Shown here: one piece after another, positions 25,732 to 61,721 of the stretch
Layout: each line of letters begins with the position of its first letter
Position numbering within the stretch: the first letter of the stretch is position 1
Source of the DNA: Viridothelium virens
Taxonomy: Eukaryota > Ascomycota > Dothideomycetes > Trypetheliales > Trypetheliaceae
DNA: 64,000 nt
Direction: 5' to 3'
Assembly: GCA_010094025.1 (NCBI GenBank)
Contig: ML991779.1
Span: forward strand, 310,001 to 374,000
Notes under the pieces: model-generated
What the model saw: only the letters and a program-made list of their open reading frames with translations
Told to the model about the DNA's origin: nothing
The model's database searches: none
Made by a program: the position numbers and the translations under genes

Positions 25732-27318
25732 TCAACACTCAAATACCTTCCCCGTACTGATGTTAAGTCTACTCCATCTCCTTCCAGTCAATAAAAAGTA
25801 AGCAAATCTTAACGGCCAGTATACATGGTATAGCCACCACCATGGCCAAGGGTCCCAGACTTCGAAAGTGCCGTCTTTCCAGAAAAGCAGATGTTGCAGG
25901 CAGACACTGCAGTCACTAAGAAGAGCTGATAAAGAGACCCCTTTTCCAGTCGCAAAGGATGTCAAGAAAGAAACCAAGGGAAGTAAGACAGAGGCCACAA
26001 GGTCATGTCCTGACCAGTAGTACTTCTGCGGCTCTTCAGGCCAGATAATCGGGTTCTCCATGCCGCCATTAGTGAAGCTCGAGCCATTAGCCTTGATTGC
26101 CTTCTCCTGTTGCAGCCGAGTGAACGCGTCCTTGGGTCCATCAAGTACGTCGAGATATTCCGCAATCATATTGGGGTTCTCTCGAAACAGCACCACCGCC
26201 GTGTGTGCTCTCGGATTACACTCAATTGGCCATAGCTCAACCCCCGACCCAGCCGCCCCTCCTCTTCCTTCCATCTCCCTTACATCCTCCTCTCTGACAA
26301 GAAAGTCAAAGCTCAAGTGCCCCGTAAACGCCTCTCCTTGCCTTTCCGCGAACGTTCGCGTAAACTCCAGCATCCCCTGCGCCAACGGCGACTCCCGTGG
26401 CAGCGCCTCATAGTGCATCAGGAGGTCCGAAGACGGACACGCAACGAATGCACGGACGCTACCGCGAACGACAAGCGCATGAGTGCAGTACTCCGGACCG
26501 CGGATGTACTGCTGCAGAATCCAGGGCGTCTGGGCTGAGATGCGGAGGGCTAGAAGATGCTCCTCTGTTTCTGACCACGACGGACGCGGCAGGAGCGTCA
26601 TGTTGCCGCGAGCCGCGTCGTCGAGCGTGAGCGACTTGAGGATGAATTGCTTCGTCCCTTGTGCGCCTTGCAAGATGTCGAGTGCAGTGTCTTGGGATGT
26701 GACGGTATGGGTCTCCGGAACGTTAAGACCCAGGGACGCAGTGTGCTCGATGAAGCTGTGTTTCTCGTGCAGCGTCTGCGTGGTCGAGATGTCGAACTGA
26801 ACGGCGCGACATGTGGTCAGACGCTCGATTGTTTCTTTGGCTGCACCGTCCTCGACAGCTGACGCGACGCCCGAGCAGCTGACCCAGAGGTGGACATTCT
26901 CGTGGGTGATGATGTCGAGAAGGGACTGGATGTAGCGATTGGAGCCGTGCTCTGCAGAGGGAGCGGTTAGGCTGTAGAATTTGCGGATACTTTTGGAGAC
27001 TCGGCCCGGGTTCAGGGCGCCACAGGGCTCGAAGTCGGCTCCAATAACGTTGTGACCCGCGGCATAGAATTGACGGGCGAGAGAGAGGCCCTTGGACATT
27101 CCAACACCAGTGACCAGAATCGTCTTTGGTTCAAAATAGGGGGTGGATGTACCTCGAATGAGACGACGTCGTTTTGTGGCTTCATCTCGAATGAGAACAT
27201 TCGCTATTAAACTTAGAGCGAGAAAGAATGTATCTTGCGGTAAGGTAATCAGACTAAGAGCTATGAGAGATGCATTCTTGAGTGAATAAGCTAGCCACCC
27301 CTGCCTGTCTGCTGGCAT
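25732..27318 (-). CDS. mysC: ATP-grasp amino-acid ligase of mycosporine synthesis (MysC-like)
   Basis: ATG at 27318; 528 aa, one exon. A hydrophobic N-terminal region (residues ~15-43) is followed by a Rossmann-like pre-ATP-grasp domain (TILVTGVGMSKGLSLARQFY and VIGADFEPCG). The ATP-grasp fold has KQFILKSL (nucleotide-binding Lys near 228), WILQQYIRGPEYCTHALV, GHLSFDFLV and the metal-binding ELWPIECNPRAH (Glu366, Asn368). The C-terminal region is Trp-rich and partly hydrophobic. In cyanobacterial and actinobacterial clusters this enzyme uses ATP to join 4-deoxygadusol to an amino acid (glycine there) as an imine-linked mycosporine. The amino acid used here cannot be read from sequence. Same strand as mysB (489 bp between them). 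Confidence 0.85.
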   Translation of the reverse strand: MPADRQGWLAYSLKNASLIALSLITLPQDTFFLALSLIANVLIRDEATKRRRLIRGTSTPYFEPKTILVTGVGMSKGLSLARQFYAAGHNVIGADFEPCGALNPGRVSKSIRKFYSLTAPSAEHGSNRYIQSLLDIITHENVHLWVSCSGVASAVEDGAAKETIERLTTCRAVQFDISTTQTLHEKHSFIEHTASLGLNVPETHTVTSQDTALDILQGAQGTKQFILKSLTLDDAARGNMTLLPRPSWSETEEHLLALRISAQTPWILQQYIRGPEYCTHALVVRGSVRAFVACPSSDLLMHYEALPRESPLAQGMLEFTRTFAERQGEAFTGHLSFDFLVREEDVREMEGRGGAAGSGVELWPIECNPRAHTAVVLFRENPNMIAEYLDVLDGPKDAFTRLQQEKAIKANGSSFTNGGMENPIIWPEEPQKYYWSGHDLVASVLLPLVSFLTSFATGKGVSLSALLSDCSVCLQHLLFWKDGTFEVWDPWPWWWLYHVYWPLRFAYFLLTGRRWSRLNISTGKVFEC

Positions 27319-27807
27319 GTTGAATCGTGAAGTAGTCTTGAGACACTTACAGGGCTTTCATAGGTGAATCCAGAGCTAAGTATGGTGATAGTAAACTAGT
27401 CGGTACCACGGATGGCCTACCATGAAGACTACGTCATGATCCTAAGTTTTTCAGTCTTTACTTATTCGTGAGCCTTATCCTTTACGATAGCCTGGGCGGC
27501 TTCAGGGCTGCACTGAGTTGAGCATATGCTTTGCCAGCAGTACAATGCCTTTGAGACTACAGAAAATTTAGAAGTCTATCCAACCAATGTTTGCGGTCTA
27601 CATATATGCAGCAGGTAGAGTAATCGTCTGACACTGCCAGGGTTTTGACCAGGCCACATTCTGTGCTTTTATCCCGTCCCGTCTCGGGTCCTCTTACCCT
27701 CTATTCTTCGAGCCTCCTCCGATTCCCTCACTCCTCCGCCCGCCGCCAAAGGCAATCTGGGTTGGGCTTCTTCCTACCTAGTCTCACTATGAATCCTGAT
27801 AACTTTG
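27319..27807. promoter_or_regulatory. mysC upstream region
   Basis: About 490 bp between the mysB stop and the mysC ATG on the same strand. It must hold the mysB 3' UTR and mysC promoter. No clear motif recognised. Confidence 0.35.
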
Positions 27808-28775
27808 TTAATTTTCCTCGTTGGTACATCTTGAAATTTCAACGGCGTCCTGGAAACTCAAGTCAATCACCTTTTGTCTAGTGCATGCCTTTTGAGGCCT
27901 TACCGGAACGCCTGTTGGCTCGAAGCTATGGACAAGCTTGCTATCATATACCAGATCTGGATTGCCTTTTGACGAGGACAGATCAAGTTCCACCTTGTAC
28001 TGTTTGGAGGTTCGGTCCTTGAATCTCGGGTCAACACCACGAGGACCATTGGTCTGAATTGCGGTCCGCTTCTGTTCAACGGAGCTGCGCACATATTCCA
28101 GATAAGGCGGATTCCCGGGCTTGATTACATTATCTGCAGCAAGAACAGAGCCTGGAGTGATGAGTCGCAATTCTTCGCACAACTTCAGATCTGTCGTGTA
28201 CGCCGGCTTGTAATGGTCAAGGAACATGAGGTCAATGTGCTTCAGGTCTCCGCTAGAATGAAGCCGCTTGATGGAGGCATCGCTGGTTCCAATGATCACT
28301 TTGACAACGTCGCTTAGGCCAGCCAGGTCGACAAGTGACATTATGACTGCACCAAACACCGGGTGCCGTTCCAGACTGTAATATCTTTGGCCGCCTGATC
28401 GCTTGACAGCGTCTCCGAAAAGGATACAGGAGTAACCGACGTAACCTCCACATTCTACCTGTATTTGCGTCAATCGGGAAATCATCGATGCAGCCGGCCT
28501 AAGTGAATCTGAGGGGTTTGACTGACCATGGTCTCTGGCTTGACTTCTTCAATAAGGTCTGTGACTATCTTTCCTTTGTCTTCTCCCACATTCATGAGAT
28601 AATTCTTGGTTCTTCCGTATTCATCTATCGCAGCGAGGACTTTCCTTGGTGATCCTCTAATGGCATCAATGTCCGATCGATTATAAATGTATTGCAACAG
28701 CTCTGTCTCACGACCATCATCAAAGAAGATCTCTGGCTCCTCGACATAGGCCTTAGCCTGATCAAATTTGGTCAT
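27808..28775 (-). CDS. mysB: O-methyltransferase of mycosporine synthesis (MysB-like, catechol-OMT fold)
   Basis: Exons 28775-28527, 28458-27904 and 27849-27808; introns 68 nt (GTCAGT/TACAG) and 54 nt (GTAAGG/TCCAG), giving 281 aa. The first splice creates the SAM motif ETMVECGGYVGYSC (Gly87-Gly91). The catechol-OMT metal/catalytic residues are placed at Asp164 (MFLDHYKPAY) with Lys167, and Asp192-Asn193 (SVLAADNVIKPG). In the known pathway MysB methylates 2-demethyl-4-deoxygadusol to 4-deoxygadusol with S-adenosylmethionine. The second intron is a multiple of three and has no stop, so retention would add 18 residues near the C-terminus. Divergent from the cyclase gene, which supports the pathway assignment. 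Confidence 0.87.
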
Positions 28776-30159
28776 CGTGTAGCGTACAGAACTCTCCTAT
28801 CTTGTGTGGTGTTCCTTCAATCATCCAAGTGGGCTATGTTTGGATTCGATCTTGTGCAATATGACACAACATGGAGCTTGCATCAAATTACGCAGCAAAT
28901 TTAGACCGACAGGTTTGAGTGCAGTCAGACTATGTCACAGGGACGAGGAAAGCTTTGCAGATCCAAGAACTGAATACCCGACGGCAACCTGCATTACAAT
29001 TCAACTCGATCACAAGCTGGTAATCTCGCGTCCGTTGTCGGGTGATGCGGGGGGCTTAGCTCTTGCTTAGCTCCTTGGGCGTGGGGATCCTATTTCGTAG
29101 TACATAACGCAATGGGGTAACGCATAACATTTTAACGCGACGACAGACCGCTGACAGATTTAGCTAGATTCGATCACCTTCGGAAAAGATTGCACCGTTC
29201 TCATCGCGTCAATGCAGGAACAGATGAAAAACTTTTGAAAGACAAACATCATGACGTCGTCAATCGCTAAACTGAGGATGGTTAGACCAGTAGATCCACG
29301 CGAACAACGCCGAGTCCTCCATCGTGAATACCCACTACTTCTCATGTAGCAGGCCAAGAAATTGTTGAGTGCGCGATTTTCTAGGATGCTGCTGTCATTG
29401 ACTGTCCAATCTGGCTTGGAATTGACTTTTTGGCGGCAACTTAGCGCACCTGATGGGCGCGGCGTGGACTCCGTTCAGCATAAAGCATGGTTACTTGCAT
29501 TTGCGTAACATGGGGATTTACCGCGCAGCTCAGCGTAAAGATTTCCAAGATCGCGCTAGGATCTAAGACCCCACGCCGGACTTTACTCCTGCCCCCCTGC
29601 AGTTCTTCTAGACTTGAACCGTCCGCAGAGCTTCCCCACGAAAGCTTGGCTCTGACCTTGATTGTCGTCAGACTGGACCAACTGGGTAGGACCCCTGACA
29701 ATATCCGAAAGCTGAGACGCTCTTTCATTGAGCTAAGGTCGGTCCGGCGACGTCTCTGTTGACGCGATACATCACAACCTCGTCCGAGATGGTTCGAAGA
29801 GCGGGTCGGCGGAAAGTGCTTGAGAGAAGAACTGTGCCCGGCATTTGCACCTCGATGTCATCTGCGCGAGCTGCATGAGGAAAGGGCTATGGCCTATCCT
29901 TGGGATTCCTTGAGCCCACATGGGCAGGCAGAACGGACGAGAGCGGCAGTGGTTGACGTTATGTTCTCTAGCCGAAGGTCAATCACTCCAAGCCAGCAGT
30001 AAACCCTTGTCAATTAGTCCGACGCGTCTGTTAGAGCACGTATATATTCGTTTTCGCGCCGCGTTGCACAAGGTTCAAGAGCACCTGTCCTTCTCTTGTT
30101 GCATCCGTGTCTTCGGAACCTACTTCTCCTTCCATTCTTCTTAGTCCATTCTTCTCAAA
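28776..30159. promoter_or_regulatory. 1.4-kb bidirectional promoter region of mysB and mysA
   Basis: No convincing gene: open frames are short, and I found no splice-consistent assembly. This is the only space for control of both divergent pathway genes. A TATA-like TATATATTCG lies at 30041-30050, about 115 bp before the mysA ATG. The last 70 bp before that ATG is CT-rich, as in fungal 5' UTRs. Confidence 0.45.
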
Positions 30160-31905
30160 ATGTCTGATTTAAAAGCAACCGTTGAAGAAACCAAGAAGGG
30201 GTTCCACGTTGTGGGCTATGAAAAGATCGAATACGACTTTACCTTTCTTGACGGTATCTTTGACATCCACAATCCCAATCTTGCAGACTGCTATGAAAGA
30301 TGGGGGCGTTGTCTTGCCGTCATGGACCGTAATATCTTTGATACATACGGAGACCAGATGCAGGCATACTTTGATCACTTCAATCTGGAGTTGAAAATCC
30401 ACAAGACAATGATCGGTGAGAAAGCCAAGTCGATCGAGACCCTGCTTTCCATTGTGGACTCGATGAATTCGTTTGGAATATTCCGAAAGGTGAGTCGATC
30501 GCTCATACTGGAGGTGACGTTAACATCAGTAGGAACCAGTTCTTGTCGTAGGGGGCGGACTCGTGACGGACGTTGCTGGGTAATACTTTTAACCACCGCC
30601 AACGATAACTTCAAGGCATCCTGGCCCAATTATCGCGAAGAGGAGAGCTCCTGCACCAGTGAGATTGGAACTAACCGGATCCCTTTAGATTTGCTTGCGC
30701 AGCATACCGGAGGAATACCAATTTCATCCGCATTCCGACGACCGTCATCGGGCTGATTGATGCCTCAGTCTCCATCAAAGTCGCCGTAAACTATGGGTTA
30801 GTAACACGAAGCCCTAGGCAGAGAGAAGAAACTGATGGCAAGGCACTAGTAACTATAAGAACCGCCTCGGAGCGTATCACGCACCTCAACATACCTTTCT
30901 CGATTTTGGATTTCTGCGTACTTTGCCAAAAGCACAGATTCGAAATGGATTTGCAGAGCTCATCAAGATCTCTACCTGCGCTCACCTCAGAACCTTTGAG
31001 CTTCTCGAGAAATACTGTGACCAACTCATCGACACCGGATTCGGACGAACGGATGGCTCGTCGAAAGAGGTTCGAGAGGCCGCAGATGAGATCAATCGGG
31101 CCGGCATTCATGAAATGTTGAAGCTGGAAACCCCAAATTTGCACGAGATTGGGTTGGATCGAGTCATTGCTTATGGGCATACGTAAGTTTCTGGGGTTTG
31201 GGCGCAAGGAGAAAATCTCTGACACTTATATCACATAGATGGTCTCCCATGCATGAGCTCGTTCCGGAAGTGCCCTTCCGCCACGGCCACGCGATCTCCA
31301 TCGACATGGCCTACTCGGCAACGCTCGCTAATATGCGGGGCATCCTTAGTGACGCGGAGCATAAAAGAATCTTGAGCTTATTCTCGCGTGCCGGTCTGTC
31401 CATGGACAACGATCAATTCGATGAAGATTTGCTCGATAAGGCCACGAAGGCTATCCTCAGGACTCGAGATGGTAAACTCAGGGCCGCTGTTCCAAGTCCC
31501 CTTGGTAGGTGTGTCTTCCTGAATGATGTATCCCTGCAGGAAATGCATGCGGCATTGCGGAAGCACAAGGAATTGATGCAGGGCTATCCCCGTCACGGAG
31601 CGGGGATAGCAGCCTTCGTGGATGCCTCGGACACGGGGTACACCATGAACAAGAAGCCAAGCGAAGCAACCAACCACGCCAATGGCCATAACGGTGTAAA
31701 CGGTGCCAGCAAGGCAATCATCAAAGATGATGTTGCCGAAGGTGTTTTCAATGGTGGTCCCGTCCACGATGGACAAGGCACGTCAAATCCGTCAGTTGCG
31801 ACTGAGCACGCGTCAGGTCCTGAAGGTGTAGATGGATCTACCAAGGCGGAAACGAAAAATGGTGCGACCTCGGAGGTCAACGGCCATGTGAGCAATGGTT
31901 TCTGA
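30160..31905 (+). CDS. mysA: Sugar-phosphate cyclase, 2-demethyl-4-deoxygadusol synthase type (MysA-like)
   Basis: Five exons: 30160-30489, 30533-30579, 30689-30796, 30850-31182 and 31239-31905, giving 494 aa. All junctions restore family motifs: [20 protein letters not shown] (NAD site, Gly117-119), [34 protein letters not shown], then the likely metal ligands Glu197 (GFAELIKIS), His271 (AYGHTWSP) and His287 ([11 protein letters not shown]). The fold is dehydroquinate-synthase-like. The pre-core [20 protein letters not shown] and the neighbours (O-MT, ATP-grasp) point to the C7-cyclitol branch, DDGS, which cyclises sedoheptulose 7-phosphate. DDGS versus related cyclases (EEVS) cannot be settled by eye. 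The C-terminal ~95 residues are an Asn/Gly/Ala-rich extension beyond the catalytic fold. Confidence 0.87.
31657..31872 (+). repeat. Internal duplication in the mysA C-terminal extension
   Basis: Two diverged copies, about 31657-31740 and 31789-31872, offset 132 nt. They encode [20 protein letters not shown] and [20 protein letters not shown]. The shared pattern is P-S-x-A-T-x-H-A-x-G-x-x-G-V-x-G-x-x-K-A. Confidence 0.65.
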
Positions 31906-39986: not shown

Positions 39987-41971
39987 ATGGCTCTTCCGGC
40001 AACCTCAATCGATGTGTTTGCCACTGATGAGGATTATCAACGCTTACAAACGATACTTGGAATCAACAAAGATATGGTCAAAAGCACTTTGAAAATGTAT
40101 CAGAGGCTTTCTCATTTCGGTGTGTTCGATGGCTACTCCGAGAGTGAGTTGAATACTGTATTCGACGTGTTGCGAGACCCTGCCGCCCGCCAGCTTTTCA
40201 GCAGGACCCGTCAGGCAGCAAACGACGGAACAGACCAGGGTAAGTAGTCTCGGCATGGTAGCGTGATCAATTGCATGTTCTCATTCTGAATTCAGCAGTG
40301 GCAACGGCGTACAGAGATTCCGGCTTCTACTCGAACACATCAAATCGTACTTCGTACGCAACGCCCTCTGACCCCTCTCGACCTGGCCTTTCCACAGCGA
40401 AAAAGCTTGCGGGAAGCGATTCAAATCAAGACGTTGGACACAATCTCTATGAGTCTGAAAGTCTGGGAGCAGCTTCATACTCGAGTGATGGGCATGACCT
40501 CAGATCATACTTCAACCGCAGGAGCACTGAGACCCATTCAATTCCCCAAGCAAATGCTACTGCTATTGGTCCCTCTCATCGTGAGATCGACTTTTATCCT
40601 AGAAACTTATCACCTAGGCGAGCCGCGTTTTCACCCAACTTGATGCGCTTGAGTTCGGCTTCAGCTCAGACAGCCAAGAGGGGAAATGTCAATGACCGTA
40701 TCAGCGCAACGGCTTCTGCAGCCTCGCAAGCTGCTCCCGATTCCGCTATGACTCGTTCAACGGTCGATTCATTCTCCCAAGTTCAGTCAGGAGCTACCAC
40801 TCGCGACGAGCGACTAGCTCGTGTACCCAGAACTCTCTACGAATGCACACACTGTGGTGGAAGCAGTTGGCAAGCTGGTTATCGAAACAGACATCACGCA
40901 GAGAAGCACGACGCTCTTTATAAGTATGAGTGCCCGCAGTGCCCGTCAAACGCGAAGCATTACGATTCATACAAATCAATTAGAATGCATCTAAGCGGAA
41001 CGCACGGTGATCAATCTTCGCCTGAGTACAACTACCCCACGAGACGCCAATATCGTTCCCCGAACCTTGCAATGGCTTGCGGGATTTGCGGATCACTCTT
41101 CCGGAGGAGAGAATGGAACGTAACAGCCACGGCAGCGGACAGAACACGACGTGCTTCAAGGGGAACGGGGTTGCCACGTACTCCTAAGGCGATAGCGTTT
41201 CAGCAAGACCAGGAGGAAGACGAAAGGAATCAAGCTTTTATTAGTGAGGTTTGGTATAATCACATCGCGAATGAACACCACAACGATTTCTCGAGCTGGT
41301 CGAGGCGAGTAATAGCTGTTGCTTTCCTTACCCAGGAAGAGCTGAAGCCTTATTTTGAGTTCGCTACTCTTGAGGACCCTCAACACTGGAACAGCATTTT
41401 GGAACAGCGCGTCGAGGACGATCGACACTGGGCTACTATTCATGAACATCTTGAATTCTATGCCCTTTCGGGCAAGGAAGAAGATGCCAAGACGACGATT
41501 GAACTTTGTCTAGGTCTTGCTGCAATCAATTGGACGCCTTTTCAATCCGCAAACAGTCAGCGCACACTTGCAAGGAATAGCCTAACGCCTCATGAGAACG
41601 TGATCAATCTTGAAAGTGCCGTGGAAGTAAACAAAAATCTCAATCACTCTATGCTAGCTCAGCAAGAGCCAGCGTCTCTAAGGGTGCCGCACGAGGCGAT
41701 TTTCCACTCGCTTAATCCCACACGCCCACGCACGTATCCGCCGCTGACTCAACGCATTGTATCAGCCACTAGAAGCGACAAAGAAAAGATCGCCTCGTTT
41801 CCTTTGCCTCCGACATCCAGCCGCCACACGAGCTTACCCCTCGTGTCTGACGAGTTATCGAAGGAGCTACAATCGCATTCCTCGTCGTACAATTCTGATG
41901 AAGCGAATGAAATGAGCGTGGATGAAGAAATAGACATAGATGAAATTTTTTCCGCCGTACTGTATCCTTGA
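39987..41971 (+). CDS. C2H2-type zinc-finger protein, unknown target
   Basis: Exons 39987-40239 and 40296-41971 with a 56-nt intron (GTAAGT/TTCAG), giving 642 aa. The N-terminal helical region (MALPATSIDVFATDEDYQRL and LSHFGVFDGYSESELNTVFD) is followed by a Ser-rich linker of ~150 residues. Zinc-finger-like elements follow: YECTHCGGSSWQ with H..H (RNRHHAEKH), a second C2H2 (YECPQCPSNAKHYDSYKSIR with MHLSGTH), and a third, looser one (ACGICGSLFRRREW with WYNHIANEH). A helical segment and a Ser-rich, acidic C-terminus (SVDEEIDIDEIF) end it. This resembles fungal C2H2 proteins with degenerate fingers. A DNA-binding regulator is likely, but targets are unknown. The fingers are spaced irregularly. 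Confidence 0.72.
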
Positions 41972-43863
41972 AGGTTTGGCACATTACTGACGTATTTCAA
42001 GTTCCCTTCGCTCACTACCGTTCGCTCATTGTCGCTTTACCATGCGCAAACACCCTCCCGAACTCATCTCTGCTACTGAATCCTTGCGCTTAGGTCACTG
42101 CACACAACGGAAAAACCAAACTATTTTCTTTTCTACTTTGGCGGAGCCGGTCTCCAATTTCTTTTTCTCACTTTCAATGTCTATTTCGCCTTGATTGTGG
42201 ACAATTCGGTTTCTTGTTCTTAGGGGGGCTTCCTCGATAGAGCGTTGGGCTTGACAATACAGGTGTGTGGAAGGAAGCTATCTCCGGAACCGAGACGGTA
42301 TCCATGTAATTCTTGGATCTTGCGATTACTGTGATGGAATGGGAGCGTTGACGTATGAAGGGTTGGTTCCATCCTTCGACGAGAAAAGGATTCGGCACGC
42401 CTTCCTGTACATCATACGTATTCTGCAGGCTTTCGAAAGAGCCAACAGTAGTTGAATGCTTCATCGCACGGTCTCATAAGTGTAATGGCGTTTCCCCACC
42501 GGATCCACTGGATTGACATCAACAGATAGACGAATCAGTCTACGGGTCAAACATACAGGAGGTGGTATAGTAGGATACCTTCATGTAGTTTTGGAGAAAT
42601 ACTGTAAAAGTGTAAAGGAATGAAGACCGCGCTAATCGAAACATCCATGTGTATTGTATCATTTAAAACTATCGATCAGCTTAGTGGACCAGACCTAGTC
42701 GAAATTCGGGACAAATCTTCTATTGCGCCGAGTGTGTTACCATCAGTCATTCCTCCAAACCTATGAGTTGAAGCTGCAACATGTCGCCTGCCAATGGAAG
42801 GAGCATCCTAGTGCGTCAATTACATGAATTTACATGCGCCTCTATCTACGATGAGAAAAAAGAACTAAGTTAAAGAAGTTCCTTCTTGGTTTAGTCCAGA
42901 CTTAAGATTGCGCCAAGCGAGCGGCGAATCGCCTTTGCAAGTGGTCACTATAAGCATAGCAATAGAAGCGTTGATTGTATGCGCCGGCATCCTGCCTACG
43001 AGACAGTTTTGTGCCCCTAGCAATCAAAGGATGGTCAGCCCTCGCCAGGTCGCCCACGGTACCATGACTCTAATCCAATCTCTTATCACTGCATGGTGTA
43101 AAGGAAGATTGATCTGAGTGCACAAAACAGTAGTCTGTAGATCAGTAGTAATTTTCAACAGTGGGAAACCATAACCACAGCACAAACATACGAGACTTTT
43201 GGTCGTTAGAAGGGTAGGGATAGGTACCTAAGTACATAGGTACATACCTTACTCCGTACGGAATACCAAGATGATGAATGCGACGAAAGCCTTCCGTTGC
43301 TAGCGCCGTAACCTTATTCTAGAGTATGCGCTCGGCGATTCCAAGCTTCGGTGGCTTCCTAAATCTCGCCACATCTCGATCCGAGCGCTCGACGTCGGGT
43401 TTTCATATTCTCTACCTAAAGCGGCCACGCTGAGCTCCATGGATGAGGGGCGGAGTTGCGGAGACCATAGGGTTCACTGTGGGGAACCCATGCAAGGTCC
43501 ACACCGTCTAGATCCTCTCGCGAAATTAGTACTCTAGGCGCCATGAGCAATTGTGGAGCCGATCCCAGAGTGCCCAGTCCCTTTTCCCCGGAGAGACTGA
43601 GAGTCAGGTCCACGTGGAAAGTCTCCAAGCACGGTTACATGGACGGGTCAACAACTTTCGTCTTGTGAACGAGGGTCGAAATACTTCGGCTGAGCTGGGA
43701 CCGAAAAGATGTCATGTTCCGCGAGGGAGATCAATGGACTCAGGCTATGGGACAGCTGGTAGCCCAAGTCAGGAAATGGTGTTATATAAGCTCTCGACAA
43801 GCTTTATTGCTTGTCATTGCGGCCATATTTCGATAATCTCTGGGGTCTCAGGGAGAGAGCACA
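41972..43863. other. Gene-poor stretch
   Basis: About 1.9 kb. It contains fungal-type palindromic TAGGTACCTAAGTACATAGGTAC sequence around 43221-43245 and a TACTCCGTAC motif at 43250-43259. A 96-codon minus-strand frame at 42174-42464 has no supporting features. No gene or RNA supported. Confidence 0.45.
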
Positions 43864-46800
43864 ATGATTGGGAAGAAAGTACGCGCTCTTGCATGCTTCA
43901 ATCGCATTTCAACTGACGAATATAGATCCTTGCTCTCGCGATTGTCGGTCTTGGTAGTCTGAGGGTATCTGGCTTGCCATACAACCATACGGATGCGCTT
44001 GTTAACGCTGCCATCGATGCTGGCACCTTTACGAATCCCTCAAAGAATGTTAGGCCACGATTCAGATACTGGATTCCCGATGCCTCCGCCGACCTCCCCA
44101 CCCTCGCCGAAGATGTACGACAAGCTGGGATCATTGGGGCGGGAGGAATCGAGATATTAGGATACTATCTGTATGGCGGTACTGCTCAAGGTTGGCCATG
44201 GATCCTTAGCATGTGCTCTGGTCCTAGTCTAATGGGTGGGCAGGAACTGGAACCTTCGCTCCGGATGACTGGTCAGTCTACGGTTGGGGAACTCCAGCAT
44301 GGCGTAAGTCCCCAGTCTGCGCGAAAAGGTGAACTGGAATAACATTTTGGGCCAGAGACTGCTTTCAAGACTTTACTGCAGTCTCACGCAGACCACGATC
44401 TGATTTCGGATTTTGCAATGGGTCCAAATCAAGGTCAGGGAGTCCCTTCTCCTGAGGACTCCGAAGGCCTAGCTTGGGATCTATACAGCTACAACATTTC
44501 CGTGCCACTGGGAGAGAGCTATAGCAATATCCTGCCAGGCTGGGGTATCGGTAAACTTCAGGCGGTTGTCGGCGGACGTATCGTCTCTTCTTTCAACATC
44601 ACGGTCCCACCCACTGCCTCATTTGGCGGTACAGCCGAACTGAATGCGACGGGCACGTATCCGAGCTTGCCTGGAGATACCCCTGCGAACCGAACACAAG
44701 TGACATTGGCCGCCAACAGTCTTCAAGATCTCACCGCTCACGTAGGCTCAGATGGTAGACTCAGCTATACATGTCTGCAAAACAGTACAGGCTCGGGATG
44801 TACTCTGTTTGTTATATATCTCATTCATTCCGACTACCGTGCACAGCAAGATCCTGAGTTCCTGGGTGGGCCGCAGACGGCTCCTCAGTCCTGGCTCCAG
44901 AATGGCTCATGGGCAGTGGATCACTTTTCTGCTCTCGGTGCTCAAATCATAACCAATTTTTGGGAACAATTTGTGCTCACTAACGGTACGCGTGAGCTTT
45001 TGATGAGTGTTGGTAATTACGGCTGGGAAGACAGTATCGAGATACGAGAAAATCTTTTCTGGACTGAGAATTATACGACGATCTTCCAGATTGAACATGG
45101 TTATGATATTACAAAATACCTACCGATTCTATTCCATCAGAACAATGTAGGTTTCGGGTCAGCACCGCCCGTGTGGTGGGTCACGGATGAGCCGGACTTT
45201 GGAAACAGCCACATTGCGGATTACAGAGAGACGGTGAGTGGCATCAGGTAGAATGTTCGGGCTCATGTGCTAATAGATTGGTAGCTCGGGACCCTCTATG
45301 GCACATACCTGCAGACTCTCACCAAGTGGGCCAATGACTACTTGGACTTGCAATTTTCGGCACAGGTGTCATATAACCTTGCAATGGACATGTTACAGAA
45401 TGTGCCGAATGTTGATGCTCCTGAGTGCGAGTCTCTTGGGTTTAACCATCTCATCGACGGCTATCGCCAATACTGTGGTCCGGCAAATCTCGCGGGAAAG
45501 CGTCTCGTGTCAACCGAAATTGGCGCTAATCCTGATGAAGCGTACCAATTGACGCTGCCGGAGCTGATGTGGGATGTCAAGCGCTCAATTGCTGGATCAG
45601 TGACGCAGTTCGTCTTCCATGGCTTTCCCTACAGTGGACCATATGGCAATACAACTTGGCCCGGCTTTACGACTTTCGACTACGAATTTTCTGAAATGCA
45701 TGGACCGAGACAGCCAGCTTGGCCGGAATTTTATCAGGATCCCATGAACTTCACAGCTCGACTGTCGTACATTTTCCAGTCGGGCGTGCCGAAAATGGAT
45801 CTTGCTTTCTATATGAAGATCACCACCTTTCCCTCGATTGTCCGGAATTATGAGCCCACTGATCTTGAGCACGCAGGTAACGTAGACACTGTCTTTGCGA
45901 GAGGCGAAGCTTACATGATTCTAGGGTATGCATACGAATACTTAAGCCCGGAAAATTTTGGTCTGCCAGGAGCATACGTTGCCAACGGAGTTCTTGCACC
46001 AGAAAATCAGGCATTCAAGGCGATGGTTATCCGCGCAAACGACTCCATGACGGTTGACGGTACTTTAGGAATCGCCGGTCTCGCTCAAAACGGTCTGCCA
46101 ATCATCTTCACAGGAGGTATTCCCACGTATGTCGCCCAATACGAACCACTTAATGGCACTCAGTGGGTAGGCCAAATCCTCAACTCGCTCACGTCGTTAC
46201 CAAATGTACATGTGGTACCGTATGAGGGCTTGGCAGATGCAGTCTCGTCTTTGGGCATTGAGCCACTCACCAGCATCAAGTCAAATGGCTCATGGTTTAC
46301 GTATTGGAGACGAGATGACCTTGTCGGAGCGGATTACGTCTTTGTTTACAATGATGCCACCGGCGCAGGTCTTGGCAATGGCTACAGCGAAGGCAGTATC
46401 AAGTTCGCATCTACAGGCACGCCCTATGTCCTCGATGCTTGGACTGGTGATCAAATCCTAATACAAAATTATACTCGCTCAAACGCATCTACAACGATCC
46501 CGTTCCAACTGGCAGGAAATCAATCCATTATTGTCGCCTTCGCCGACGCCAATTCTACTATCTCCTGCGCTAGCAGCCATTCGAATCTCACAACTGGACC
46601 TTGCACTCCTGCTACAGTCGTTAACGATCCCTCACGACCTCTACCACCTCCATCCAGCTCTTTTCTTGATTTGACCGATTGGACCCTAGTTGTCGAGCAC
46701 TGGGATCCTCCAACCGACCTCTCCGATATCACCCCGAACGCCACTATCAAACACAACACGACGCACCAGCTCACCTCCCTCATGCCTTGGGCCTCGATCC

Positions 46801-47192
46801 CCGGCCTCGGCGCCAATGTTAGCGGTCGTGGCTACTATACCACTACCTTCACCTCACCCATTACCAACACCAGCACTACCGCCGGCAGCCACAGCAGCTC
46901 AGGCGTCTACATCGACTTTGGTGCCATCTACCATACCATCCGCGTCTCCATTAACGGACGCCCACTTCCACCCCTCGACCCCACCTGGGCGAAGGCTGAC
47001 ATATCGTCTTACTTGGTGTCTGGGGAGAACATGGTAGAGGCCGTGGTGAGCACGCCATTGCTGAACGTGCTGCGACCGATTTGGGGAGAGTTACTGAGTT
47101 CGGGAGCGGGAGTGAATGTGCCGGCTGCAGGGTTGCCGATACAGGACTATGGGCTGCAGAGGCCTGTGGTGGTGGTGCCGTATACGAGATGA
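43864..47192 (+). CDS. Large secreted glycosidase-like protein (GH106-like rhamnosidase candidate)
   Basis: Five exons: 43864-43878, 43926-44178, 44244-44303, 44356-45233 and 45285-47192, giving 1037 aa. Exon 1 plus exon 2 creates a signal peptide (MIGKKILALAIVGLGSLRVS). Motifs in order: RPRFRYWIPDASAD, GGIEILGYYLYGG, DDWSVYGWGTPAW, ISDFAMGPNQGQGVP, VWWVTDEPDF, LVSTEIGANPDEAYQLTLPE, FPYSGPYGNTTWPG, then a C-terminal jelly-roll-like domain (SGVYIDFGAIYHTIRVSING). Many N-glycosylation sites. This layout fits the fungal secreted family usually linked to alpha-L-rhamnosidase GH106/GH2-like enzymes. The substrate is not demonstrable here. All internal splices fall inside otherwise continuous family-like motifs. 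Confidence 0.75.
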
Positions 47193-59920: not shown

Positions 59921-60873
59921 GCGTTGGTATAGCTTTTGCAAATTGCTGAACACTTGGCTCGGTATTTCGTGCAGCAGTACCTCAGCAAGATTCAGTAATC
60001 AGAATTCAACTCGACGCACTGAACTAGCTAAATCCGAAAGTCGTAATCTTCTGAGATTATCCGAATGATTGGGGCGATCAGTGCACCTGGCGTTGGATCG
60101 CTCTGTGCCGGTCTGACATGAGAAGGCTCCGGTGCATACATGCTTAAGTACCCAAGCGTCCCAGTTTTGGGCAATTCCATAGTGCCATGAGGTATTTCGC
60201 GATCACTCTCCAGCCAATCACGAACATGTCCGGAAATTTAGCACGCGCAGGTCATTGTCGCTTACCAATCCGATTGTCCTAGTACGGAGTAGAACTCCGT
60301 TCAATCTTCACCACTCTGCCAACCCATATACGGTCATTGCTTAATCCATATGTCTCCGGCCCCAACGCTATCGTATACTCTCCGTTGGCATGGACGCAGA
60401 TTTCATGGTGTCCGTCATAGTGACCACGTATTCCTGTTTCATTGCAATGTTCTCTCTAATCAAGAGCCGCCTCCGCTCTTACGGTACAGCAGCCAAAATG
60501 CCTCTACGAAGGGAGACACATTTGTAATTTATCAACAGGTGGGTCTCAATCTCTCCGCAATTTCTGGTCCGCAAAGCTTGAAGTATTGCATGAACCATGT
60601 TAGTTCCACCGCTGAATAATTTTTGCATTGGTAATGCTGTACTGATCTCGATATCGAAACATTTTCATGCGTTTCTTCGTCTCCTGATATGGCATGGTAC
60701 CTCATTCTTGTTTCCGGCTTAGGAGACATCTCGAACGTCGTGGAATATATAAAGCCACCAGCAAGATCCACGAAAATATTTCCCCTCTACTTAACAAATC
60801 TCAAAACACCTGTCTTTCAATCTTAGCAGAGTGTGTCGAACCTGAAGTTTCGTACCGAACGCTTTATATCGAA
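59921..60873. other. Intergenic stretch upstream of the SDR gene
   Basis: About 0.95 kb. It contains an inverted repeat at 60284-60300 (below) and TATA-like sequence near 60745-60751. Short frames are unsupported. Confidence 0.4.
60284..60300. repeat. Short hairpin of the recurrent TACGGAGTA motif
   Basis: ACGGAGT-AGA-ACTCCGT: two 7-nt arms with a 3-nt loop. Single copies of the same motif occur at 4469-4480, 43250-43259 and 61818-61827, all in intergenic DNA. Confidence 0.6.
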
Positions 60874-61721
60874 ATGTCTCTCAATAACAAGCTTGCTGTT
60901 GTCACGGGCGGTTCACGGGGCATTGGAGCTGCAATTGCTCTCGAACTTGCCAAACGTGGTGCCGATGTTCTCGTGACCTATACTTCCAATCAATCGAAAG
61001 CAGAATCTGTGAAGGATCAAATTACAGCTTTAGGCCGTCGTTCTGCCGCCATCCGGGCAGATCAGAGTACCATTGATGTGGGCAAAGTCGTCTTGAAGGG
61101 CCTACAAGAGAGCTTCGGTGTGGGGGCTGAGCGGAAACTGGATATTCTCGTCATCAATGCGGGCATTTCGTCTCGGACGCCAACTTTGGACTTCGAACTG
61201 GAGAAATTCACCAGGTACGTTACTCTCTGTCGGAGCTCCAACTCTTTCATTGCCACTCCAGTGATATATGGAAGAGATACTGTGCTGAAAGTATCCTCAG
61301 CTTCATGAATACCAATGTTCGTGGACCCATGCTCCTCGTCCGCGATCTCGCCCCCTTCCTCTCCTCTACTGGTCGCATCCTTGCCAACACATCCATTGTT
61401 GCACGTCATCCAGCACCAGATCAAGACGCTTACACTGCATCCAAAGCCGCCCTCGAAGCTCTGGTGCGACAATGGGCCTACACGCTTCCTGATCATTACA
61501 AGGGCGTCACTGCCAACTCATTTGCACCCGGTCCTGTGGTAACAGACATGATGAAAGGGTATGAGGCTTTGTTTGACAAAGTGAAGGAAGACACGCCAGT
61601 GGACCGTCGTCTGGGTGAAGTTGGAGACATTGCAGATGTGGTGGCCTGGATGGCAGGTGAAGAAAGCAGGTGGATTACTGGGCAGTCGATTCAGTTGAAT
61701 GGAGGTCGGCTCATGTTATAA
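60874..61721 (+). CDS. Short-chain dehydrogenase/reductase (SDR)
   Basis: Exons 60874-61214 and 61301-61721 with an 86-nt intron (GTACGT/CTCAG), giving 253 aa, the classical SDR length. The cofactor motif TGGSRGIG is at 11-18 and the NAG motif in LDILVINAGISS. The catalytic Ser145, Tyr158 and Lys162 are seen (LANTSIVARHP, then DAYTASKAALEALVRQW). The C-terminal VVAWMAGEESRWITGQSIQL-NGG is typical. Basic residues after the cofactor loop suggest NADP(H). Resembles beta-ketoacyl-ACP-reductase-like SDRs; the substrate cannot be read. It lies ~29 kb from the mys genes, so no link is proposed. Confidence 0.88.

Follow-up and report, generated by a model that had tools for sequence, protein, structure and literature searches.

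The main finding of this study is that three adjacent genes of the ascomycete Viridothelium virens, encoding a sugar-phosphate cyclase (A), an O-methyltransferase (B) and an ATP-grasp ligase (C), can with high confidence be regarded as a fungal mycosporine cluster. The genes span 6.2 kb (25732-31905) of the window, i.e., the whole 64,000-nt stretch of contig ML991779.1 (positions 310,001 to 374,000) that was analysed. A preceding sequence-only reading had described a cyclase, a methyltransferase and an ATP-grasp ligase side by side, and all three are present at the positions it gave, with similarities far beyond chance. B and C lie on the same strand and A is divergent from both, as follows.

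30160..31905, plus strand: A, predicted DDGS (MysA-type) sedoheptulose-7-phosphate cyclase, 494 aa, five exons
30160-30489, 30533-30579, 30689-30796, 30850-31182, 31239-31905, plus strand: exons of A (gene model)
27808..28775, minus strand: B, predicted COMT-type O-methyltransferase, 281 aa, three exons
28775-28527, 28458-27904, 27849-27808, minus strand: exons of B (gene model)
28526-28459 (68 nt), 27903-27850 (54 nt), minus strand: introns of B, inferred from sequence
25732..27318, minus strand: C, predicted ATP-grasp ligase related to MysC, intronless (single exon), 528 aa
28776..30159, no strand: divergent A/B intergenic region, between both starts, 1,384 bp
27319..27807, no strand: B/C intergenic region, from B stop to C start, 489 bp

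The four introns deduced in A (43, 109, 53 and 56 nt) are all GT-AG, while the second intron of B, which is in frame (GTAAGG...CAG), yields upon splicing a protein of 281 aa instead of 299. All three frames are open, splice sites are canonical and the aligned catalytic residues are kept, which argues against a degenerate or silent cluster that has lost its function. We consider that alternative very improbable, although absence at the level of the strain does occur, Phaffia rhodozyma CBS 6938 being reported to lack both the cluster and mycosporines (PMC5103461).

Fungal mycosporine biosynthesis cannot be presented as undescribed, because work on P. rhodozyma is in print: deletion of any single gene of its DDGS-OMT-ATPG cluster abolishes mycosporine production, and Saccharomyces cerevisiae expressing all three cDNAs produces mycosporine glutaminol (PMC10057719). 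The two loci share the same three enzyme classes and the same layout, with DDGS divergent from co-oriented OMT and ATPG, and their dimensions are comparable: 1,384 bp here versus 1,568 bp (IGR1) for the divergent region, 489 versus 621 bp (IGR2) for the OMT/ATPG gap, 6.2 versus 7.9 kb for the span, and 494/281/528 versus 477/284/500 aa for the three proteins (PMC10057719). They differ in exon numbers, which are 5, 3 and 1 here versus 14, 7 and 6 in Phaffia (PMC10057719). By analogy with Phaffia, the A/B intergenic region is probably a shared promoter; a sigma-70/terminator scan, which suits bacteria only, found no more in it than in its shuffles.

Family placement of A leads us to predict that it is a desmethyl-4-deoxygadusol synthase (DDGS). 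A is 56% identical to PDB chain 5tpr (E 1.4e-148), its residues after ~400 forming an extra tail beyond that match, and it agrees with a published fungal DDGS stretch at 24 of 30 positions, a comparison limited to these 30 residues (PMC10057719). A phylogeny had been proposed as a check on the original assignment, a position with dehydroquinate (DHQS) or EEV (EEVS) synthases counting against it, and in our tree A falls inside the DDGS clade (24 rows, support 100/100), together with cyanobacterial DDGS (98/91). The 21 DHQS-type rows, and six EEVS-type rows plus EEVS chain 4p53, all lie outside this clade (30 reference rows were typed by best reference match, as 21 DHQS, six EEVS and three DDGS). 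An EEVS reading, in which the cluster would lead to gadusol or a valiolone-derived aminocyclitol rather than a mycosporine, draws on the close relationship of DDGS and EEVS and on the match of A to 4p53 (E 5.3e-69), but is scarcely credible in view of that tree and of the discriminating columns, i.e., those that are invariant across 60 DDGS rows and hold a different invariant residue in five EEVS. At 13 of these 14 columns A is DDGS-like, at one it has another residue and at none is it EEVS-like; E255, A269 and T348, for instance, are in the DDGS state, where the five EEVS have L, D and H. Furthermore, a MysC relative adjoins A, and in none of the three gene models is a methyltransferase fused to an oxidase as in vertebrate MT-Ox. 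Tree, discriminating columns and row typing together lead us to reject both EEVS and DHQS as identities of A. Assignment of A as a DDGS also agrees with residues E198, H272 and H288, which are conserved in 60/60 DDGS and which we take to be at the expected metal-ligand places. Identity of A to bacterial (cyanobacterial and actinobacterial) DDGS is 52-58%, and the median identity between the cyanobacterial and actinobacterial enzymes is 61.4; in other words, the distance of A from bacterial DDGS is only slightly greater than that between the two bacterial groups.

The characterization of B indicates a catechol-OMT-type enzyme from a different OMT subfamily than bacterial MysB. B matches COMT chain 5zy5 (E 2.9e-43) and groups with it in two trees (100/99 and 100/97), in both of which the pair then joins other COMT chains (96/91 and 96/85), with long branches flagged for B and 5zy5. 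D164, K167, D192 and N193 of B align with equivalent COMT residues, presumably metal-binding and catalytic, and all are kept. Placing B inside 14 MysB is rejected by the AU test (p = 8.7e-5), which excludes orthology to MysB, and blastp against each of 57 MysB gives 20-27% identity over 138-204 aa (best piece). The first tree contained 15 MysB, L072 being left out as a copy of the L001 MysB, and the second, which also served for the AU test, contained 14, with L080, L051 and 4p58 left out as well. The 299-aa form of B was used for the 5zy5 match, the search of bacterial loci and blastp against the 57 MysB, and one COMT-grouping analysis used the first 224 residues, common to both forms. The name "mysB" in the sequence-only reading therefore fits by expected function, but not by orthology. 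Since B belongs to another subfamily than MysB, we infer its substrate from its neighbours and from Phaffia: unlike other members of the COMT family with which it groups (PDB 5zy5, 6aw4, 4p58), B lies in a mycosporine cluster, so its substrate would be desmethyl-4-deoxygadusol and not a catechol. In Naganishia, the fungal OMT is already annotated as a catechol O-methyltransferase, according to two reports (PMC12204325, PMC8875396); in the open-licence literature that we searched, no discussion of the difference between fungal OMT and MysB was found.

C appears to be an ATP-grasp ligase from the MysC side of the family, strongly diverged. It matches NCBIfam NF005315 with an E-value of 2.7e-56, but at 191 bits versus a curated cut-off of 406, and it matches the gene downstream of DDGS in 60/60 bacterial loci (E 5.3e-29 or better). 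A match to C was found in 15 of 20 genomes searched, all 15 of which have a DDGS, and in the other five there is no DDGS among the cyclase matches listed. The 60 loci come from an alignment-based second scan of bacterial genomes, a scan with A alone having confirmed no relatives; viral contigs, also scanned, yielded none. An OMT frame was picked in 58/60 of these loci, the exceptions (L019 and L022) being due to an over-extended C frame, and both have an OMT match in the locus search; for L061-L080, frames were obtained in 16/20 loci (not L068, L073, L075 and L079). In the ATP-grasp tree, C and 21 MysC are split from six other ATP-grasp proteins with 100/100 support (sampled were 18/60 MysC loci plus L118, L119 and L133, and 5/8 non-MysC plasmid matches, L134-L138, plus L126). 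This rejects an unrelated ligase clade, the position that had been named as speaking against C. C itself has a long branch (3.91), and we place it as basal on the MysC side because a split uniting C with the six other proteins also appears (48/54). Pfam gives no significant match for C itself, whereas PF02655 matches 11 of 12 aligned members of the C family at E up to 0.1, C not being among those matched. A profile search with the C alignment against PDB sequences returned 12 matches (E 0.016 to 0.9), none convincing, and the fold was therefore examined by structure prediction. The model (mean pLDDT 76.8, pTM 0.80), which has a long N-terminal helix, finds ATP-grasp ligases in Foldseek, the best being 3vot (E 2.4e-12), with a moderate TM of 0.41 by query and 12% identity.

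Divergence of C bears on what it may attach. C shares ~30% identity with bacterial MysC, compared with 54-56% between A and bacterial DDGS (the respective cyano-actino medians being 51.6 and 61.4). Of 128 columns in which at least 95% of 58 MysC proteins agree, C keeps 65 and differs at 63; its substrate may therefore differ. L023 and L049, incomplete, were left out of the alignment for these columns, and L023, L044, L046 and L049 out of the cyano-actino comparison, in which the low end of the range for B (16.5%) is due to a wrong L045 frame. The same figures would fit a scenario in which A and B produce 4-deoxygadusol but C has switched to another amine or another acceptor, so that the end product is not a simple mycosporine. 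We regard this as unlikely, because C retains the I365-E-C-N-P-R370 motif and the C-terminal region common to MysC, and because a cluster with the same set of genes yields mycosporine glutaminol in Phaffia (PMC10057719).

Cyanobacterial and actinobacterial mysA-mysB-mysC likewise combine a DDGS, an OMT and a MysC ATP-grasp ligase, but their genes all run in one direction, whereas here A is divergent, and their MysB and MysC differ from B and C as detailed above. On a plasmid of Nostoc sp. HK-01, a D-Ala-D-Ala-ligase-like gene lies beside the mys set, and some fungal NRPS-like clusters have been assigned to mycosporine-like products, according to a survey of Hypoxylaceae (PMC8403587). Among the 30 of 53 ORFs of at least 170 aa that we scanned with Pfam, neither a D-Ala-D-Ala-ligase-like (MysD) gene nor an AMP-binding/NRPS-like domain was found, nor any other fourth pathway enzyme, although genes with short exons could escape such a scan. 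Within this scope, the earlier statement that no fourth enzyme lies nearby holds. The sequence-only reading is upheld in its essentials, the relationship suggested by the name "mysB" being the one point to correct.

While the enzyme classes, the layout and the family placements are observed, what each enzyme catalyses and which class of product results can be predicted, with high probability, from these families and from gene deletion and heterologous expression in Phaffia. A would cyclise sedoheptulose 7-phosphate to 2-desmethyl-4-deoxygadusol, B would methylate it with SAM to 4-deoxygadusol, and C would couple a single amine (amino acid or amino alcohol) in an ATP-dependent step; the product would be a monosubstituted aminocyclohexenone with absorption near 310 nm. 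Our best guess for the amine, again by analogy with Phaffia, is glutaminol. More tentatively, and with rather less conviction, the fungal pathway might be an evolutionary mosaic, in which a bacterial-like DDGS is combined with a COMT-type enzyme replacing MysB and a MysC relative remodelled for a different amine (e.g., an amino alcohol), these two changed enzymes setting the product class.

As natural UV-B screens, mycosporines attract commercial interest, and the cluster described here is a compact and intron-poor source of three mycosporine enzymes. Since a cluster of the same kind is already known to function in a yeast, the locus is a further case of an established system, for which the comparison provides figures on the difference between B and MysB and on the divergence of C. 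These numbers—an OMT that is not bacterial MysB and a strongly diverged ligase—bear on the amino-alcohol mycosporines of fungi such as Phaffia.

The three genes A, B and C exist where the sequence-only reading had placed them, and their right-to-left order of cyclase, methyltransferase and ligase is indeed pathway order, as it had claimed. The gene models, built from the sequence, are as follows.

30160-31905, plus strand: A, cyclase gene, five exons, 494 aa
28775-27808, minus strand: B, O-methyltransferase gene, three exons, 281 aa
27318-25732, minus strand: C, ATP-grasp ligase gene, one exon, 528 aa

A and B are transcribed divergently with 1,384 bp between them, and B and C, in the same orientation, are separated by 489 bp. 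The C-terminus of B is broken up by an in-frame stretch of 54 nt with GTAAGG...CAG ends, the removal of which fuses FEPTGVP with DAVEISRC; this stretch is a predicted intron, which would alter the obvious gene model. The three genes and their arrangement are the same as in a functionally characterised cluster of Phaffia rhodozyma, in which each single deletion abolishes mycosporines and loss of the ligase leaves 4-deoxygadusol; S. cerevisiae expressing all three cDNAs produces mycosporine glutaminol (PMC10057719). Ascomycete homologues are known as well, those of P. tritici-repentis, P. nodorum, A. clavatus and M. oryzae having served as queries in the same study (PMC10057719), and catechol O-methyltransferase (COMT) is named among mycosporine genes in two Naganishia papers (PMC12204325, PMC8875396). 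This type of cluster is therefore already known, and the window adds another example.

The proposal that A is a MysA-type desmethyl-4-deoxygadusol synthase (DDGS) is well supported. Its match to PDB chain 5tpr (E 1.4e-148, 56% identity), deposited as a 3-dehydroquinate synthase and which we take to be the Anabaena DDGS, leaves far behind those to the related cyclase classes EEVS (chain 4p53, E 5.3e-69) and DHQS (best chain, E 3.9e-31). In a 52-row tree, whose 30 fetched reference rows were later assigned by their best matches to DHQS (21), EEVS (6) and DDGS (3), A is nested in a 24-row DDGS group (100/100), where cyanobacterial DDGS adjoin it (98/91). Fourteen columns tell the two classes apart, each having one residue in at least 97% of the 60 DDGS compared and another fixed residue in five EEVS; A is DDGS-like at 13 of them, other at one and EEVS-like at none, and it retains E198, H272 and H288. 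It is also identical at 24/30 positions to a stretch quoted by the Phaffia authors as a marker of fungal DDGS (PMC10057719). Past the 5tpr match, residues 400-494 (window 31618-31902) form an N/G/A-rich C-terminal tail of ~95 residues; the Phaffia DDGS, given as 477 aa (PMC10057719), likewise exceeds most bacterial DDGS frames (about 405-415 aa).

The name mysB, taken as orthology, does not hold for B. The top match is chain 5zy5 (E 2.9e-43), a COMT that is presumably a fungal enzyme, and further COMT chains score near 1e-36; the best pieces aligned with 57 bacterial MysB show 20-27% identity over 138-204 aa. At E 1e-5, B has matches in 20/60 mys loci, none of them cyanobacterial. In three of the 16 mysB-carrying bacterial genomes (G010, G011 and G013), it matches best a COMT-like protein encoded away from the operon (E 5.7e-21 to 5.6e-19), whereas the OMT within the operon reaches 1.1e-5 to 4.9e-4. 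With B as query, no such protein was found in the other 13, one of which lacks any match, the remainder having weaker best matches (7.7e-12 to 8.7e-5) to other OMT types or MysB itself. B groups with 5zy5 in two trees (100/99 and 100/97), in which the tree program flags long branches for both, and a placement inside MysB is rejected by the AU test (p = 8.7e-5). D164, K167, D192 and N193 line up with COMT residues to which we ascribe metal and catalytic roles. By these sequence comparisons B is not a MysB orthologue, and its predicted function, which is expected, is to do MysB's job.

C by itself has no significant Pfam match, but in all 60 bacterial loci the gene lying downstream of DDGS is similar to it, at 26-34% identity. 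Among 20 whole genomes searched, 15 have a C match and all of these carry DDGS; in the genome in doubt, G042, a DDGS 60% identical to 5tpr, MysB and the C match lie in one row. The cyclases of the other five (G054, G071, G098, G111 and G189) are EEVS-type or DHQS-like among the matches listed. In a tree of C, 21 MysC and six other ATP-grasp proteins, a split unites C with MysC (100/100), which bears out the claimed MysC-type identity. Within that group, however, C is basal and its branch is long; an opposing split, joining C with the six others, is also present (48/54). The AlphaFold model of C (mean pLDDT 76.8, pTM 0.80) resembles ATP-grasp enzymes, its top match being the L-amino acid ligase 3vot (E 2.4e-12, TM 0.41 by query, 12% identity). 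C keeps 65 of the 128 MysC-conserved columns and differs at 63; I365-E-C-N-P-R370, D489-P490 and G523-K524 are kept. In the model, residues 1-56 (window 27151-27318) contain a long N-terminal helix, H5-56, with a 19-residue Kyte-Doolittle maximum of 1.55, weaker than in 16 cyanobacterial MysC, whose N-terminal end is clearly hydrophobic (2.29-2.81). MysC may be membrane-associated.

The bacterial comparison loci offered further observations. The actinobacterial genome G042 has an EEVS-type gene (L083) and, elsewhere, the DDGS-MysB-MysC row (L139, 981-4376), and two sedoheptulose-7-phosphate cyclase systems may coexist in it. On a Nostoc sp. HK-01 plasmid typed as mobilizable (L133, 1674-7574), a row of DDGS-like, OMT and MysC-like genes, under generic annotations, is followed by a D-Ala-D-Ala-ligase-like gene. 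MysC-related ATP-grasp proteins also occur on Paenibacillus and Pontibacillus plasmids (L134 and L138) with the same neighbours: beta-ketoacyl-ACP synthase III, NAD(P)-dependent oxidoreductase and MBL-fold hydrolase.

Alongside the observed enzyme classes, family placements and layout, we infer the three reactions, product class and amine of the window cluster. A would cyclise sedoheptulose 7-phosphate to 2-desmethyl-4-deoxygadusol, B would methylate this with SAM to 4-deoxygadusol, and C would use ATP to join one amine to it, giving a monosubstituted mycosporine absorbing at 310 nm. The claim that no fourth enzyme is recognisable nearby agrees with Pfam scans of 30/53 ORFs of at least 170 aa, hand-picked so that frames do not overlap, in which NRPS-like, D-Ala-D-Ala-ligase-like and glycosyltransferase domains were not found. 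The sole possible tailoring enzyme recognised in these 30 ORFs is a short-chain dehydrogenase about 29 kb away (60688-61721), which there is no reason for linking to the cluster. The scanned neighbours are mostly housekeeping (adaptin, DnaJ, Stk19, kinesin, DNA polymerase subunit B, PreP-type peptidase and taxilin), with a DAGAT-type acyltransferase 157 bp off the end of C. Half of the scanned ORFs (15/30) have no Pfam match at E 1e-5, and three long open frames at 40262-47192 (569, 302 and 635 aa) have none at this threshold.

The three genes differ in conservation, as measured by median identity first to cyanobacterial proteins (16 rows) and then to actinobacterial ones (38-40 rows); the yardstick is the median identity between these two bacterial groups. 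The medians are 54.2 and 56.4 for A (yardstick 61.4), 22.1 and 20.9 for B (52.9), and 30.6 and 29.6 for C (51.6); one B row (L045) is in the wrong frame, which the medians withstand. Judged from sequence, the pathway here looks like a mosaic, in which the first enzyme is conserved, the second replaced and the third diverged.
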